The notes under the pieces were generated by a model. The model was not told where the DNA came from. It was given only the letters and a program-made list of their open reading frames with translations, and did no database searches. Below are positions 8,594 through 14,146 of a DNA stretch of 22,247 bases, one piece after another. Made by a program: the position numbers and the translations under genes. Origin of the DNA: a virus; IMG/VR virus record IMGVR_UViG_3300013094_000303, positions 1-22,247 of that record; one strand, 5' to 3'. Within the stretch, counting starts at the first letter, position 1, and every line of letters starts with the position of its first letter.

Positions 8594-9985
8594 ATGATTG
8601 ATATTGAACAAGTAGACGGCACATTAAAAATATCTTACTTTAATGAAGCTGGAGAAATTGAAATAGAAACTTTGCATATCCCAGGAGAACAAATGTTTGA
8701 CTGGGAATATGTTCAGCCTGGAGAAAAGGCGTATCAAGGAATAACTTCTTGGGATGGAAAGCCGGTACGCAAGAAAAGAACTCGCTATTTAAGCAAGTGG
8801 AGAATCGAAGAATTCCTATTGACTCTAGGACCAAGCGTGACCGAAAAGTATACAAAACACGCTCCCAAAAAATTCTACCTGGATATTGAAACTTATGTTG
8901 GTGATGAATGGCCAAAACCCGATACCGCAAAATATCCGGTGACGGCTATATGCTTTTGTCATGAAAACAAGATCATCACATTGGGTGTCAAACCACTTAC
9001 CGCAAAACAAATCCTTAGCATCAAAGCCAGAATCAGAGAACACTTTAAGGATTATGTGAAAGACAAAGACGACATTGAATTCAACTATCTTAAATTCGAG
9101 ACCGAGTATGATATGTTGGTTTCTTTCTTTTACAAAGCAATCCAAAAGATGCCATTGATTTCGGGCTGGAACGTAATCGGCTATGACTGGATGTACCTTG
9201 TCAACCGTTGCAAGCGCCTGAACATTGATCCGAGCCCATGTTCACCATCACACAAGTTGGTAGGCGACAATCAATTGCCTATGCATAGGTTGGTCGTGGA
9301 TTACCTCGATGTGTACAAAAAGTGGGATCGAGTAATCGACATCAAGGAAAACAACACATTGGACTATGTGGCAAAAGCTGCTTTAGGAATCCAAAAAGTA
9401 AAGTACAGCGGAACACTACAAGAACTTTACGAAAATGATTTTGAATCTTATATTTACTACAATGCGGTCGATACCAAACTGGTCGATTTAATCGACAAGA
9501 AAATCAACACACTGCAAACATTCTTGACTCTGGGCAACATCACGCAGGTCGAAGCGACTCGTGCTTATTCACCGATATGGATGGCCGAGGCTGTGATGAC
9601 TCGTGAAAACTATTCACGCCGCCGAGTCTTCCCAAGAACCGATAAAGCATCGAAAAAACGTGAAAAGTACGAAGGCGCGTTCGTCGTCGACCCAAAGATG
9701 GGATTGTACGAATGGGTGGCTTCTTTTGACTTTGCGTCTCTGTACCCATCAATCATGCGCCAGTGGAACATATCTCCTGAATCCTATGTAAAAAACATCG
9801 ACATTACCGAAACATTCGACGCTACAAAGTACATCAAAACATCTTCAGGAGCTCTTTTCAAAAAAGACGAGGATTCTGTTTTTAAAACGATTCTAGCCGA
9901 TTATTATGGCAAAAGAAAAACGACAAAGAAGCAGTACACCGAAGTCGAGGATGAAATTGAACAATTGAAGAAATATCTAAAATAA
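8594..9985 (+). CDS. 43: N-terminal half of a split family B DNA polymerase
   Basis: This 463-residue protein matches the N-terminal half of a T4 gp43-type replicative polymerase. The 3'-5' exonuclease motifs are intact: FYLDIET (Asp97, Glu99), GWNVIGYDW (Asn193, Asp198) and YYNAVDTKLV (Asp293). The YEGAFV linker at about 359-364 and polymerase motif A DFASLYPSIMRQW (Asp379) follow. The protein ends shortly after, in the basic/acidic helix region that leads into the fingers (TEVEDEIEQLKKYLK), so motif B and the motif C DTD are absent. A whole gp43 is about 900 residues. The stop is 12 bases before nrdB, so the rest must be elsewhere in the genome. No intein-like end is visible. Split gene 43 is known in some Aeromonas T4-like phages, where two proteins associate. 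Confidence 0.9.
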   Translation: MIDIEQVDGTLKISYFNEAGEIEIETLHIPGEQMFDWEYVQPGEKAYQGITSWDGKPVRKKRTRYLSKWRIEEFLLTLGPSVTEKYTKHAPKKFYLDIETYVGDEWPKPDTAKYPVTAICFCHENKIITLGVKPLTAKQILSIKARIREHFKDYVKDKDDIEFNYLKFETEYDMLVSFFYKAIQKMPLISGWNVIGYDWMYLVNRCKRLNIDPSPCSPSHKLVGDNQLPMHRLVVDYLDVYKKWDRVIDIKENNTLDYVAKAALGIQKVKYSGTLQELYENDFESYIYYNAVDTKLVDLIDKKINTLQTFLTLGNITQVEATRAYSPIWMAEAVMTRENYSRRRVFPRTDKASKKREKYEGAFVVDPKMGLYEWVASFDFASLYPSIMRQWNISPESYVKNIDITETFDATKYIKTSSGALFKKDEDSVFKTILADYYGKRKTTKKQYTEVEDEIEQLKKYLK

Positions 9986-9997
9986 ACAAAACAAACA

Positions 9998-10993
9998 ATG
10001 AGTAAACTTTTTACACCAAGAATTCCTTACAAGCCGTTTGAGTACCCTGTGTACTTCAATGAAGGCTGGATGAAACAAGCACAGGTCTTTTGGTTGCATA
10101 CCGAGATTCCGATGCAAGGTGACTTTAAGGATTGGAAAGAATTTTTGACTCCAGCAGAGAAGAATTTAGTAGGTAACATTTTGCTAGGATTTGCACAGAC
10201 AGAATGCGCGGTCGGTGATTATTGGACGGGAATGGTAAAGCAATGGTTTCCTAAACACGAGATTCAACAAATGGCAATGATGTTTGGATCGCAAGAAACG
10301 ATCCACGCAACAGCATACTCTTATCTGAACGAGACTCTTGGATTGGAAGATTTCGCAGCATTCTTACAAGAGCCAGCGACAAAAGAAAAATTCGACCTCC
10401 TAACAGAGACTACGGCTGATTGGACGCCTGCAGACATCATCAACAATCCACAAGCAAGAATCGAAGTTGGAAGAAGCTTAGCAATCTTTTCAGCGTTTGC
10501 TGAAGGCGTTTCATTGTATTCATCATTTGCTGTATTGTATTCGTTTCAGATGAGAAATCTCCTCAAAGGAATCGGTCAACAAATGAAATGGAGCGTACGT
10601 GATGAATCACTGCATTCAAAAATGGGATGTACTTTGTTCAGACATATGTGTGAAGAATTTCCAGAATTGCTCGAGGCTTGTAAAGATACCATCAATGAAG
10701 CAGCCGAGTTAATTGTAAAGCTGGAATTCAACTACATTGACAAGATGTTCGAAATGGGTGACTTGGAAAATCTGAAAGCCTGCGACCTGAAAGAATTCAT
10801 CAAACAAAGAACCAACGAAAAATTAGCTGAACTTGGTTATGATGCTAAATTCGACATCAATAAAAAGAAAGTCGCAAACCTTGACTGGTTCTATAATTTA
10901 ACCGGTGGAAAAACGCATTCTGACTTTTTTGCGATTCGTCCTACAGATTATTCAAAGCCAAACGAAGGAGAAAATTGGGATGATATATTCTAA
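9998..10993 (+). CDS. nrdB: Ribonucleotide reductase class I, small subunit
   Basis: This 331-residue NrdB makes and stores the radical used by NrdA to reduce ribonucleotides. Metal ligands are all visible: Glu69 (in QTECAVGD), Glu100 and His103 (SQETIHATAY), Glu169 (FAEGVSLY), and Glu203 and His206 (RDESLH). Tyr107, four residues after His103, corresponds to the radical tyrosine of E. coli NrdB (Tyr122). The first ligand is Glu rather than Asp84 of E. coli. The C-terminal tail ends in acidic/aromatic residues (NWDDIF), as needed to dock on NrdA. The gene starts 12 bases after the polymerase fragment and precedes nrdA by 229 bases, with one small gene between. An A-rich leader (AACAAACA) precedes the ATG. 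Confidence 0.96.
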   Translation: MSKLFTPRIPYKPFEYPVYFNEGWMKQAQVFWLHTEIPMQGDFKDWKEFLTPAEKNLVGNILLGFAQTECAVGDYWTGMVKQWFPKHEIQQMAMMFGSQETIHATAYSYLNETLGLEDFAAFLQEPATKEKFDLLTETTADWTPADIINNPQARIEVGRSLAIFSAFAEGVSLYSSFAVLYSFQMRNLLKGIGQQMKWSVRDESLHSKMGCTLFRHMCEEFPELLEACKDTINEAAELIVKLEFNYIDKMFEMGDLENLKACDLKEFIKQRTNEKLAELGYDAKFDINKKKVANLDWFYNLTGGKTHSDFFAIRPTDYSKPNEGENWDDIF

Positions 10994-11015: not shown

Positions 11016-11219
11016 ATGAAATTAAAAGAAATTAAAGAAGCATTATCTTTCTTATCAGAAGAAGATATAAAAAGACATGGAGTTTTGAATTGTAATTTAA
11101 TACATATTAGAGAAGGAAATCATTTACCAGTTCTAAATATAGATTTTCTTGATGGGCGTAAATACTCAACAAGCAATGAAGATGAAATATTAGAAATAAT
11201 AGAAAAAATTAAAAAATAA
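11016..11219 (+). CDS. Small AT-rich hypothetical protein between nrdB and nrdA
   Basis: This 67-residue charged protein has helical ends and a central strand region with H-I-R-E-G-N-H-L-P-V-L-N-I-D-F. No family is recognised. The gene is much richer in A+T than nrdB or the nrdA exteins, like the dUTPase and the intein/endonuclease segment, and its leader (AAAATAAAAAATAA before the ATG) resembles that of the dUTPase gene. It lies between two genes that are usually adjacent, with only three bases separating it from nrdA. It is probably an acquired accessory gene of unknown function. Confidence 0.65.
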   Translation: MKLKEIKEALSFLSEEDIKRHGVLNCNLIHIREGNHLPVLNIDFLDGRKYSTSNEDEILEIIEKIKK

Positions 11220-11222
11220 AAT

Positions 11223-12350
11223 ATGACAGCTGACGTTAGCAAATTGTTAAATGAATTAGGATGGGTAATAGGCGTTGATATACCAGAATGGGGCGCAACC
11301 GAGATTTACGTAAAGACCATCAGCAAAGGATACTTACTACCAGGAGAAAAACCTAAAGACGCATATTGGAGAGTCTGTACAACTGTCGCAAAGAGACTTG
11401 GAAAACCACAGATGGCTTCGAAGTTCTTTGATTACATTTGGAAACAGTGGCTGTGTTTGGCATCACCGGTGTTATCAAATACTGGAACAGATAGAGGATT
11501 GCCAATATCATGTTTCGGTATCGATGTAGGTGACAGCATCTATGAAATTGGATCAAAGAATTTGGAATTGATGTTGCTCGCAAAACATGGCGGCGGAGTA
11601 GGATTAGGAATCAATATGATTCGTCCTGCTGGATCAAAAATCACAGGCAACGGCACATCCGATGGAGTCGTTCCTTTCTGTAAAATATTTGATTCTACGA
11701 TATTGGCGACGAATCAAGGCTCGGTCAGACGTGGCGCAGCTTCTACAAACATCGACATCGACCACGGAGATTTCGAAGAATGGTTGGAAACAAGAGAGCC
11801 TAAGGGTGACGTCAATCGTCAGTGCATGAACACACACCAATGCGCAGTGATCGGTGACAAGTTCATGAGAAAGCTACAAGATGGCGATCCTGAAGCTCGT
11901 AGAAAATGGGGCAAGCTACTACAGAAAAGAAAGGCGACCGGTGAACCTTACATCATGTTCAAAGGAAATGTGAACAAGCAAAATCCGGATGCGTACAAAA
12001 GAAATGGTCTAAAAGTATTTATGACTAATATTTGTGTGACTGGGGACACTTTAATTGATATTCAGTTTGAGACCGGAGAAACTGATAAAGTTCAAATATC
12101 TCAGATTGGCGCTTTATTAGAATTAACACCTTCAATTAAAGTTTTATCAAAAAATACAAAAACAGGAAACTCTGAATGGAAACTTATAACAGATTTTGGA
12201 ATGACTGATGAATTTGCTGAAGTTTATGAAATAGAAGATATTAATACAGGAAAAATGGTAAAATGCACAGGTAATCATAAGTTCTTAACTTCACGAGGCT
12301 GGATAGCAGCTAAAGATTTAACCGAATCAGATGAACTTGTAATAAATTAA
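11223..12350 (+). CDS. nrdA: NrdA N-terminal half fused to split-intein N fragment
   Basis: The protein has 375 residues. Residues 1-270 are the N-terminal half of the class I ribonucleotide reductase large subunit: SPVLSNTGT, then LPISCFGIDVGDS, where Cys97 corresponds to the redox Cys225 of E. coli, GGGVGLGI and the CMNTHQCAV segment. The extein ends in KVFMTNI. Residues 271-375 are an intein N fragment: block A CVTGDTLI with nucleophilic Cys1, and block B CTGNHKFLTSRGW with the T-x-x-H motif. It ends in DELVIN and a stop. This matches the split inteins found in reductase genes. Only 270 residues precede the junction against about 438 in E. coli, so the allosteric ATP-cone domain is absent. 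The product must trans-splice with the protein from 12812 to give an active enzyme of about 597 residues. Confidence 0.92.
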   Translation: MTADVSKLLNELGWVIGVDIPEWGATEIYVKTISKGYLLPGEKPKDAYWRVCTTVAKRLGKPQMASKFFDYIWKQWLCLASPVLSNTGTDRGLPISCFGIDVGDSIYEIGSKNLELMLLAKHGGGVGLGINMIRPAGSKITGNGTSDGVVPFCKIFDSTILATNQGSVRRGAASTNIDIDHGDFEEWLETREPKGDVNRQCMNTHQCAVIGDKFMRKLQDGDPEARRKWGKLLQKRKATGEPYIMFKGNVNKQNPDAYKRNGLKVFMTNICVTGDTLIDIQFETGETDKVQISQIGALLELTPSIKVLSKNTKTGNSEWKLITDFGMTDEFAEVYEIEDINTGKMVKCTGNHKFLTSRGWIAAKDLTESDELVIN

Positions 12351-12910
12351 AATATGCAAATACTTAGAAAGACTCATGAAAAGAAATTGGATATTAAGAA
12401 TCCAATTTCTTTTTCTACAGATGAAATTATAGAATCTTTAGATCCTGGAATGATTTTTATACTTAATGATTTGTTTTTTTATACTATATCCGATAATTTT
12501 AACATCATAAACTTTTATTTAATAATTAATAATGAATGTAAATCTTTTTTATCATTTAATGTTGAGTATCAAAAAATAATAATAGATCTTTTTGACAAAG
12601 AAATTTATAGGAAAATATTGCTAAATAATTTTTTTAGCAACTCAGATGAATTATCAAATTTAAAAACTAGACATGCATCAGCATTGGGAAAAAAATGGTA
12701 CTATAACGAAATATCTGGAGAAGAAAAACTTTTATTAGAAGCTCCTAATTCTGAATGGAAGAAAGGAAGACCTTCTACAGCAAAAAATAATAAAAACAAA
12801 AATAAAACAAAATGATAAAAATTAGAAAATTAGAAGGCTTACATTCGGTTTACGATATAACCGTTGACGAAAATGAAAATTTTTATGCTAATGATGTATT
12901 AGTGCATAAC
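12033..12910 (+). mobile_element. Split intein locus with intervening endonuclease-like gene
   Basis: The IntN coding part (12033-12347, 105 residues) and the IntC coding part (12812-12910, 33 residues) flank a 462-base gene in the place a homing endonuclease would take. Together the intein halves have blocks A, B, F and G, ending in the required His-Asn before Cys+1. The whole segment is more AT-rich than the exteins. The layout matches the fractured-gene arrangement known from marine phage metagenomes (for example NrdA-2 and NrdJ-1 split inteins). Confidence 0.88.
12354..12815 (+). CDS. Homing-endonuclease-like protein inside the split intein
   Basis: The protein has 153 residues, is very AT-rich and starts three bases after the IntN stop. 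Its stop overlaps the IntC ATG (ATGA), so IntC translation may depend on it. Residues 105-142 (TRHASALGKKWYYNEISG ... WKKGRPS) resemble the DNA-contacting G-K-x-W-Y-N-N ... G-R module of phage homing endonucleases (NUMOD type). The N-terminal 100 residues, rich in Ile, Asn and Phe, have no LAGLIDADG, GIY-YIG, HNH or Vsr-like motif that I can see. It may be a divergent or degenerated endonuclease, or a DNA-binding remnant. Position strongly suggests it belongs to the mobility of the intein. The catalytic assignment is uncertain. Confidence 0.65.
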   Translation: MQILRKTHEKKLDIKNPISFSTDEIIESLDPGMIFILNDLFFYTISDNFNIINFYLIINNECKSFLSFNVEYQKIIIDLFDKEIYRKILLNNFFSNSDELSNLKTRHASALGKKWYYNEISGEEKLLLEAPNSEWKKGRPSTAKNNKNKNKTK

Positions 12911-12916
12911 TGCTCT
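12812..12916 (+). CDS. nrdA: Intein C fragment plus first two C-extein codons of NrdA (exon 1)
   Basis: An ATG at 12812 (overlapping the previous stop) encodes a 33-residue intein C fragment with block F VYDITVDENENFYAND and block G VLVHN. Cys+1 (TGC 12911-12913) and Ser (TCT 12914-12916) of the NrdA C-extein follow. Cys+1 is also the catalytic thiyl-radical cysteine of the reductase (E. coli Cys439). The frame then enters the group I intron, where it would read RFWSSL and stop at TAG, 12935-12937. After intron removal the frame continues with GAA at 13169, giving the TN-I-C-S-E-I active-site sequence once trans-spliced. Confidence 0.85.
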
Positions 12917-13168
12917 AGATTTTGGAGCTCTTTATAGAAATATAAAGATGTTAATCTGGTGAATTGTCTGGAACCCTTTAATATGGGAATCAGCAGCCAA
13001 GCTTAGGAAGCGAAAAAAGTACTAAGAAGGTTCAACGACTAATCCTTGAGAATCGCAATCAATAAAAGGGACACGAGCGCCGGACACCGTGTAGGTGATG
13101 ATATAGTCTGAACATTGTAGGAAACTACGAGAACTAAAGGATAAAGAGCCTTTAGGATAACAAATTTG
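12917..13168 (+). ncRNA. Compact group I intron in nrdA
   Basis: A 252-nt ORF-less group I intron. P1 pairs exon GCTCT (12912-12916) with GGAGC (12924-12928), giving the required U.G pair at the 5' splice site. P10 pairs GATTTT (12918-12923) with the 3' exon GAAATC (13169-13174). P3 is CCCTTT (12974-12979) with AAAGGG (13065-13070). P5-like hairpin: GCTT with AAGC near 13001-13012. P7 and its extension: GTTCA-AC-GACTA (13030-13041) with TAGTC-TGAAC (13104-13113). P8: ACACG (13071-13075) with CGTGT (13088-13092). P9: GTAG-GAAA-CTAC (13117-13128). A further hairpin joins CTAAAGG (13134-13140) and CCTTTAG (13149-13155). The last base is the expected G (13168). The GATATAGTCTG core resembles the T4 td intron. 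Confidence 0.92.
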
Positions 13169-14146
13169 GAAATCGTTCTACATACCGATGAACAACATTC
13201 ATTTGTGTGCTGTTTGAGCTCTTTGAACCTGGCAAAATACGATGAATGGAAAGACACTGATTTGGTGTATACAGCAACTTGGTTCTTGGACGGTGTACTT
13301 GAAGAATTCATCCAACGTGCAAAAGGTCTCAAAGGATTCGACAACGCTATCCGTTCTGCACAAAAAGGTAGAGCGCTTGGATTGGGAGTTCTTGGATGGC
13401 ACACTTACTTACAAAAGAAAGGAATACCGTTTGAAGGATTGACCGCACAGTTCGAGACTCGAAAGATATTTTCACAAATGAAGATCGAGAGCGAAAGAGG
13501 CAGCCGAGACCTTGCGAGCGAATTTGGTGAACCGCTTTGGTGCCGCGACACAGGTATGAGAAATACACACCTACGAGCAATCGCTCCTACTGTCACTAAC
13601 TCAAAACTTAGCGGTGATGTTAGCTCAGGAGTTGAACCTTGGATCGCAAATGTGTTTACTGAACAAACAGCAAAAGGCACCTTCATTCGTAAGAATCCTG
13701 AATTGGAAAGAATGTTGAAAAAGATTGGTAAGAACACAAAAGAGACTTGGGACAAAATTCTCGAAGATGAAGGATCGGTACAAGACTTGGATTTTCTTGA
13801 TGAGTGGGTTTACCTCGATGGCAAAGTGGTCGAAAAGTCCAGCGTCGTTGACGAAATATCTTTGGCAAGAACTTTTTCCGTCAAAGATGTATATAAGACA
13901 TTCAAGGAGATTAACCAACTGGAACTTGTAAAGCAAGGAGGAATCCGTCAACAATACATTGACCAATCCGTTTCTCTTAACTTGGCATTTCCTTCAGTGG
14001 CAGAACCCAAGTGGATCAACCAAGTGCATTTGGAAGCGTGGAAACAAGGCATCAAAACTTTGTATTACATGAGAACCGAAAGTGTGCTTAGAGGTGATAT
14101 AGCAGCAAGAGCGACTGATCCAAACTGTGTTAGCTGCGAAGGGTGA
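13169..14146 (+). CDS. nrdA: NrdA C-terminal part (exon 2)
   Basis: This stretch encodes 325 residues, starting with EIVLHTDEQHSFVCCLSSLNL. The Glu at the start corresponds to E. coli Glu441, and the first Cys of VCC to the redox Cys462. Further on are a central barrel region with GLGVLGWHTYLQ, and near the end T-L-Y-Y-M-R-T with the two radical-transfer tyrosines (E. coli Tyr730/731). The C-terminal tail NCVSCEG has the Cys pair used for re-reduction. It is in frame with exon 1, because the intron length is a multiple of three. A TTG at 13166-13168 could be mistaken for a start, but it is the intron's last three bases. Expression needs intron removal and then trans-splicing with the N half. 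Confidence 0.93.
   Translation, partial: EIVLHTDEQHSFVCCLSSLNLAKYDEWKDTDLVYTATWFLDGVLEEFIQRAKGLKGFDNAIRSAQKGRALGLGVLGWHTYLQKKGIPFEGLTAQFETRKIFSQMKIESERGSRDLASEFGEPLWCRDTGMRNTHLRAIAPTVTNSKLSGDVSSGVEPWIANVFTEQTAKGTFIRKNPELERMLKKIGKNTKETWDKILEDEGSVQDLDFLDEWVYLDGKVVEKSSVVDEISLARTFSVKDVYKTFKEINQLELVKQGGIRQQYIDQSVSLNLAFPSVAEPKWINQVHLEAWKQGIKTLYYMRTESVLRGDIAARATDPNCVSCEG

Follow-up and report, generated by a model that had tools for sequence, protein, structure and literature searches.

A class Id-like phage nrdA gene interrupted in its catalytic loop by a split intein and a group I intron six bases apart

How an active site can be rebuilt when its catalytic Asn, Cys, and Glu lie on three separate coding segments is the question raised by the nrdA gene of IMG/VR virus record IMGVR_UViG_3300013094_000303, a phage fragment of 22,247 nucleotides (positions 1–22,247, referred to here as the window), in which sequence reading and family searches identify a class Id-like nrdB–nrdA pair encoding a ribonucleotide reductase (RNR). 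The gene (11223–14146) is very probably a functional class Id-like nrdA broken at one catalytic loop by two self-removing parasites, a split intein and a group I intron. What the sequence itself demonstrates is the anatomy, the homology of the individual elements, and the capacity for P1 and P10 pairing; a single active enzyme would be expected to depend on RNA splicing as well as protein joining.

The interrupted catalytic loop

Read 5′ to 3′ on the plus strand, on which all the nrdB and nrdA features described here lie, the locus runs from NrdA up to Asn-Ile, through an N-terminal intein half (IntN) with its stop codon, an open reading frame (ORF) of 153 amino acids, a C-terminal intein half (IntC), and the codons for Cys-Ser, to the intron and finally Glu-Ile with the remainder of NrdA. 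The N-extein (11223–12032) comprises 270 amino acids ending in ...VFMTNI, holds the catalytic Asn as well as the LPISCFG cysteine, and is 87% identical over residues 11–270 to the uninterrupted NrdA of locus L002 (IMG/VR loci are labeled L###; L124 is 3300043425_001539 and L127 is 3300010354_000207). Exon 2 (13169–14146), which matches Pfam Ribonuc_red_lgC at 8.1e-44, extends from EIVLHT to CVSCEG and a TGA and carries the catalytic Glu, the CCLSS cysteine, the LYYMR tyrosines, and the C-terminal CxxC. Both NrdA halves align end to end with the NrdA of structure 6dqw, placing the junction Asn, Cys, and Glu at residues 284, 286, and 288 of that chain, and the remaining expected catalytic residues are kept (LPISCFG, SFVCCLSS, LYYMR, and the terminal CVSC). 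An earlier reading of the DNA from its letters and ORFs (the sequence-only reading) had assigned the catalytic Asn to the first polypeptide, the Cys to exon 1 of the second, and the Glu to exon 2, which the 6dqw alignment bears out, and its anatomy for 11223–14146 proved real when the coordinates were re-derived.

The best structural-database relatives of the NrdA halves are 6dqw and 6dqx (2e-54 for one half and 1.1e-78 for the other), and those of the intact radical-generating small subunit NrdB (9998–10993; Pfam Ribonuc_red_sm, 3.4e-56) include 6cwo and 5olk. The searches name all four entries just as ribonucleotide reductases, which we take to be class Id enzymes. By these nearest relatives and the kept catalytic cysteines and tyrosines, NrdA and NrdB appear class Id-like, the class being marked by a dimanganese cofactor.

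IntN (12033–12350 with its stop) is fused to the N-extein and consists of 105 amino acids running from CVTGDT to ELVIN (12033–12347), with CVTGDT as block A, starting at Cys1, and CTGNH as block B (TxxH). IntC (12812–12910) consists of 33 amino acids, MIKIRKLEG...VLVHN (SVYDITVDENENFYANDVLVHN), and its blocks F and G, VYDITVDENENFYANDVLVHN, end in His-Asn and are followed directly by the +1 Cys. Pfam Intein_splicing matches the two halves at 3e-6 and 8e-7, each under Pfam's own cut-off, the NCBIfam model intein_Cterm matches IntC at 1.6e-9, and among solved structures IntN is closest to the split intein NrdJ-1 (1e-9). Each half is fused to its own extein part in an ORF of its own (TAA at 12348–12350; ATG at 12812), a layout that recurs in other nrdA loci, and the ATG of IntC shares bases with the TGA of the preceding ORF in an ATGA overlap. 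Motifs and layout confirm 12033–12910 as a naturally split intein, for which trans-splicing is predicted, and together with the similarity to NrdJ-1 and the intein models they uphold the earlier placing of such an intein directly before the radical cysteine.

The group I intron (12917–13168) is exactly 252 nucleotides long, without an ORF of its own, and matches Rfam RF00028 over the full model (1–253) with 88.1 bits against a cut-off of 50 (E 1.4e-21), in agreement with the length and type first proposed for it. Its internal guide, GAUUUU-GGAGC (12918–12928), could form both expected pairings: GGAGC with GCUCU of exon 1 in P1, with the expected U.G at the 5′ splice site, and GAUUUU with GAAAUC of exon 2 in P10, which has six base pairs and follows a 3′ intron end of ...UUUG. 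P1 is also recovered in the minimum-energy fold. The core score, P1, P10, and terminal G confirm a group I intron that is predicted to be self-splicing.

Between the two elements stands the exon 1 remnant TGC TCT (12911–12916), which encodes the radical cysteine, at the same time the +1 extein residue, and a serine, and which corresponds to the six-base spacer of the sequence-only reading. The whole P1 exon strand, GCUCU, is confined to these two codons, the intein supplies nothing past its Asn codon, and the signals of intein and intron adjoin without overlap. Such close spacing is possible because the intein requires just the +1 Cys and the ribozyme just the five P1 exon bases, so that the same two codons can serve as splicing substrate for each element, and two unrelated parasites, one acting on RNA and the other on protein, occupy a common stretch of 12 bases in an essential active site. 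At this junction, both closely related alleles that have the intron, those of the window and L127, use TGC-TCT, as against one of 80 empty alleles and none of 67 intein junctions, as expected if guide pairing constrains codon choice.

Allele states and precedents

With both inserts removed, the junction TNI-CS-EIVLHT is contiguous in 80 of the 80 nearest NrdA loci of IMG/VR, and four allele states occur in this NrdA family: empty, intein only (L124), intron only at the same base (L127), and both, found in the window alone. In L124, whose NrdA is 84% identical to the window's, this site is occupied by the same split intein (IntN 58% and IntC 67% identical), but the intron is lacking and the middle ORF, of 471 amino acids, includes a nuclease-like region. 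L127, with a 78% identical NrdA, lacks an intein at the Cys but bears a group I intron at the very base where the window has its own; the two introns are 71% identical, and compensatory helix changes affect P8, P9, and the stem that follows P9. An intron also occupies this site in two distant nrdA genes, those of L132 and L134. A tree made by a quick method, with many weak branches, places the window beside the empty L002 and apart from L124 and L127. Co-conversion of the exon flanks between L127 and the window was considered and rejected, identity not being raised beyond the guide-paired bases.

Twenty contigs with an intein at the site were recovered with a pattern of NrdA followed by the intein start Cys-x-x-Gly-Asp-Thr, and IntN as a direct query gave no more than two distant loci. 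An IntC pattern recovered 67 nrdA-type intein junctions, of which 60 run at least 280 codons into the extein, six end at contig ends, and one stops 51 codons past the junction; an intron two codons past the intein was found at none of the 67, including the 60 complete ones. A strict intron-end pattern had no match, and a relaxed one returned 14 contigs, three of them with an intron in nrdA at this site (L127, L132, and L134), while a pattern for the intron-only allele returned L127 and, as judged by translation, eight chance matches. A scan of the genome collection for the intein and intron junction, with a narrow pattern whose spacer length was fixed to that of the window, found none. The rarity first suggested for the pairing holds across the sequences searched, in which the window alone has both elements.

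L127 itself, read on the reverse strand, has a second nrdA break between residues 77 and 78 of its NrdA C-part, which resembles a split intein divided, unusually, between blocks A and B and not B and F: a stop-terminated ORF beginning C-VAKGSKIEIV is followed by MKIKIITKE... up to YVIHN and a Thr. L127 thus also pairs an intron with a split intein, a different one than in the window, about 75 codons apart and with the intein downstream.

The intein resembles those of fractured genes (gp41-1 and NrdJ-1 type) in its split between blocks B and F, the sizes of its halves (IntN about 105 and IntC about 33 amino acids), its separate ORFs with a gene in between, and its nrdA host, and it is unlike them in that the middle gene encodes no recognizable nuclease and a group I intron follows six bases past the C-terminal junction. 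Bacillus phage SPbeta bnrdE, a system reportedly due to Lazarevic in 1998, likewise combines a group I intron and an intein in one RNR large-subunit gene, with the intein at exactly the same site (NL before CSE), but it encodes a class Ib NrdE, its intein is contiguous, and about 146 codons separate that intein from the intron upstream of it. Staphylococcus phage Twort also carries group I introns in its nrdE, again the gene of an RNR large subunit, and the first of them is 80% alike over 79 nucleotides in its 3′ part, yet both introns occupy other sites and no intein accompanies them, so they were rejected as same-site precedents. In Brochothrix phage A9, nrdE contains three introns together with a nuclease encoded in an intein (PMC3653736), and fractured nrdA inteins have been described from ocean metagenomes, as far as the citing paper relates (Dassa 2009, cited in PMC3653736); among these precedents, the comparison of intron-intein spacing covers SPbeta bnrdE. 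Judged by titles and abstracts, no paper returned by full-text literature searches deals with a split intein beside a group I intron. Each component is known, as is an intron with an intein in one phage RNR gene, and this tight pairing appears new among the sequences searched, in keeping with the earlier view that each element alone is known and their double arrangement unusual; no second case was found in the genomes searched. In an archaeal gene with two inteins, each was found to impede the homing of its neighbor (PMC10643990); the window retains no recognizable homing nuclease. The four allele states in one gene family provide a natural case for asking whether neighboring homing elements exclude or tolerate each other.

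A proposed route to one enzyme and competing explanations

For a functional gene, the following route is proposed. The nrdB–nrdA region would be transcribed as a single message, and the ribozyme would join TGC-TCT to GAA-ATC by means of P1 and P10; translation of IntC from unspliced RNA would instead end after Cys-Ser-RFWSSL at an in-frame TAG (12935–12937). NrdA-IntN, the small ORF product, and IntC-Cys-Ser-NrdA(C) would be made as separate polypeptides, the last two coupled by the ATGA overlap, after which IntN and IntC would associate and trans-splice to ...TNI-CSEIVLHT..., with Cys1 and the His-Asn end taking part and the radical Cys serving as +1 nucleophile. Both insertion sites are recurrent targets in NrdA, and the arrangement probably arose, within a lineage that has empty alleles as its nearest kin, by successive single insertions or by one insertion and an exchange of alleles. 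The term "mobile elements" used for the two in the sequence-only reading stands insofar as mobility can be judged from relatives, and falls short in that neither element carries an identifiable homing nuclease, so that both look immobile on their own at present. For the same reason, the cassette is probably a remnant, and it probably persists because imprecise loss would kill the enzyme.

A dead or dying copy, in which one of the splicing reactions has been lost and the phage relies on a host or other RNR, would agree with two insertions that have no active homing gene and with the broken RNRs of some Campylobacter phages, which have been called degenerating (PMC3653736). However, the window nrdA has no premature stop and no loss of a catalytic residue outside the elements, and the ribozyme score is strong, with P1 and P10 intact. 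Measured against L005, the amino-acid-changing rate of the two window halves (0.108 and 0.152) is no higher than that of the uninterrupted sister L002 (0.106 and 0.151), although synonymous sites are saturated, so that selection is judged by this relative rate alone and no rate ratio is quoted. That saturation weighs against a functional gene, as do the modest minimum free energy z-score of the intron region (−2.04) and the size of the genome, a 22 kb fragment, which leaves room for a second RNR elsewhere. The rates and intact residues nevertheless argue that NrdA function has been kept since the insertions, with splicing itself a prediction, and the window nrdA is probably functional; a dead copy is quite unlikely.

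The intron might splice while the halves act as a non-covalent two-chain enzyme without protein splicing, like NrdA-a/NrdA-b of Aeromonas phage Aeh1, and a functional two-piece RNR is indeed documented, according to the citing paper (Friedrich 2007, cited in PMC10448857), but this is very improbable here, where the break falls inside the catalytic N-x-C-x-E loop with intein halves on both sides, all intein splicing residues are kept, and the radical Cys would lie behind 33 amino acids of IntC. That the locus is an assembly artifact, a chimera of two alleles of the same sample, one with the intein and the other with the intron, is scarcely credible: allele mixing during assembly is possible for a metagenome contig, but the flanks show no identity breakpoint, and IntN, IntC, and the intron differ from the known single-element alleles (58–71% identity), so that no sampled allele is the source of such a chimera.

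The small ORF between the intein halves and neighboring genes

The sequence-only reading erred in one detail, the "endonuclease-like gene" between the intein halves (12354–12815). No recognizable nuclease family or fold was found for this ORF, which has no Pfam domain and matches PHROGs at chance level only; its AlphaFold model is fair (predicted local distance difference test, pLDDT, 80.1) and has no match in the PDB below E 0.06 and no nuclease among the top matches, and the endonuclease reading was rejected on these family and fold searches. A recognizable free-standing endonuclease gene, one of the marks of a fractured-gene intein, is accordingly absent from this position, while relatives, judged by sequence reading, carry GIY-YIG-like or PD-(D/E)xK-like ORFs between their intein halves.

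Relatives of the ORF emerged via intein loci only, peptide patterns finding none in IMG/VR. It aligns with the C-terminal domain of the 471-amino-acid ORF of L124 (38% over 76 amino acids, E 3e-9), and that domain in turn aligns with free-standing ORFs of about 108 amino acids between the intein halves of many other fractured nrdA loci (31%, E 3e-8), where most of them sit directly behind IntN; the direct link between the window ORF and this group is weak. The window protein also carries an extra C-terminal motif, GKKWYYNEISGEEKLLLEAPNSEWKKGRP, and searches with the WYYNE...GRP motif at its C-terminus gave weak matches only (E 1 or worse). The relative from L092 is predicted confidently (pLDDT 92.9) and shares core elements with the window model; its fold has no convincing match in the PDB and none among viral models, and no homologue was found among 50,697 phage records. 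The ORF product looks like an undescribed companion of fractured nrdA inteins, and the locus exposes a small, unnamed protein family tied to them.

Members of this family, about 110 amino acids long, turn up repeatedly between the two parts of fractured nrdA inteins, regardless of which endonuclease accompanies them (L085, L086, L087, L090, L092, L095, L099, L146, L148, L166, L203, and L124), and in L124 the small domain is fused behind the nuclease-like region. In five divergent RNR genes (L088, L089, L094, L100, and L101), split inteins occupy the same site but enclose other genes, including, by reading, GIY-YIG-like and HNH-like ORFs, or, in the case of L100, nearly nothing. A more speculative and unlikely proposal is that the arrangement forms an ordered double gate on the phage deoxynucleotide (dNTP) supply, in which translation of IntC through the spacer would compete with P1 and ligated NrdA would form only when RNA splicing wins, with the protein of about 110 amino acids acting as a dedicated split-intein factor in assembly, regulation, or mobility.

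Between nrdB and nrdA lies an ORF of 67 amino acids (11016–11219) without a family match or a relative in any locus compared. Directly before nrdB, a DNA polymerase B ORF of 463 amino acids (8594–9985) contains the exonuclease and the start of the polymerase domain, and since the same short form occurs in L002 and L124, the polymerase B gene appears to be split in this phage group.

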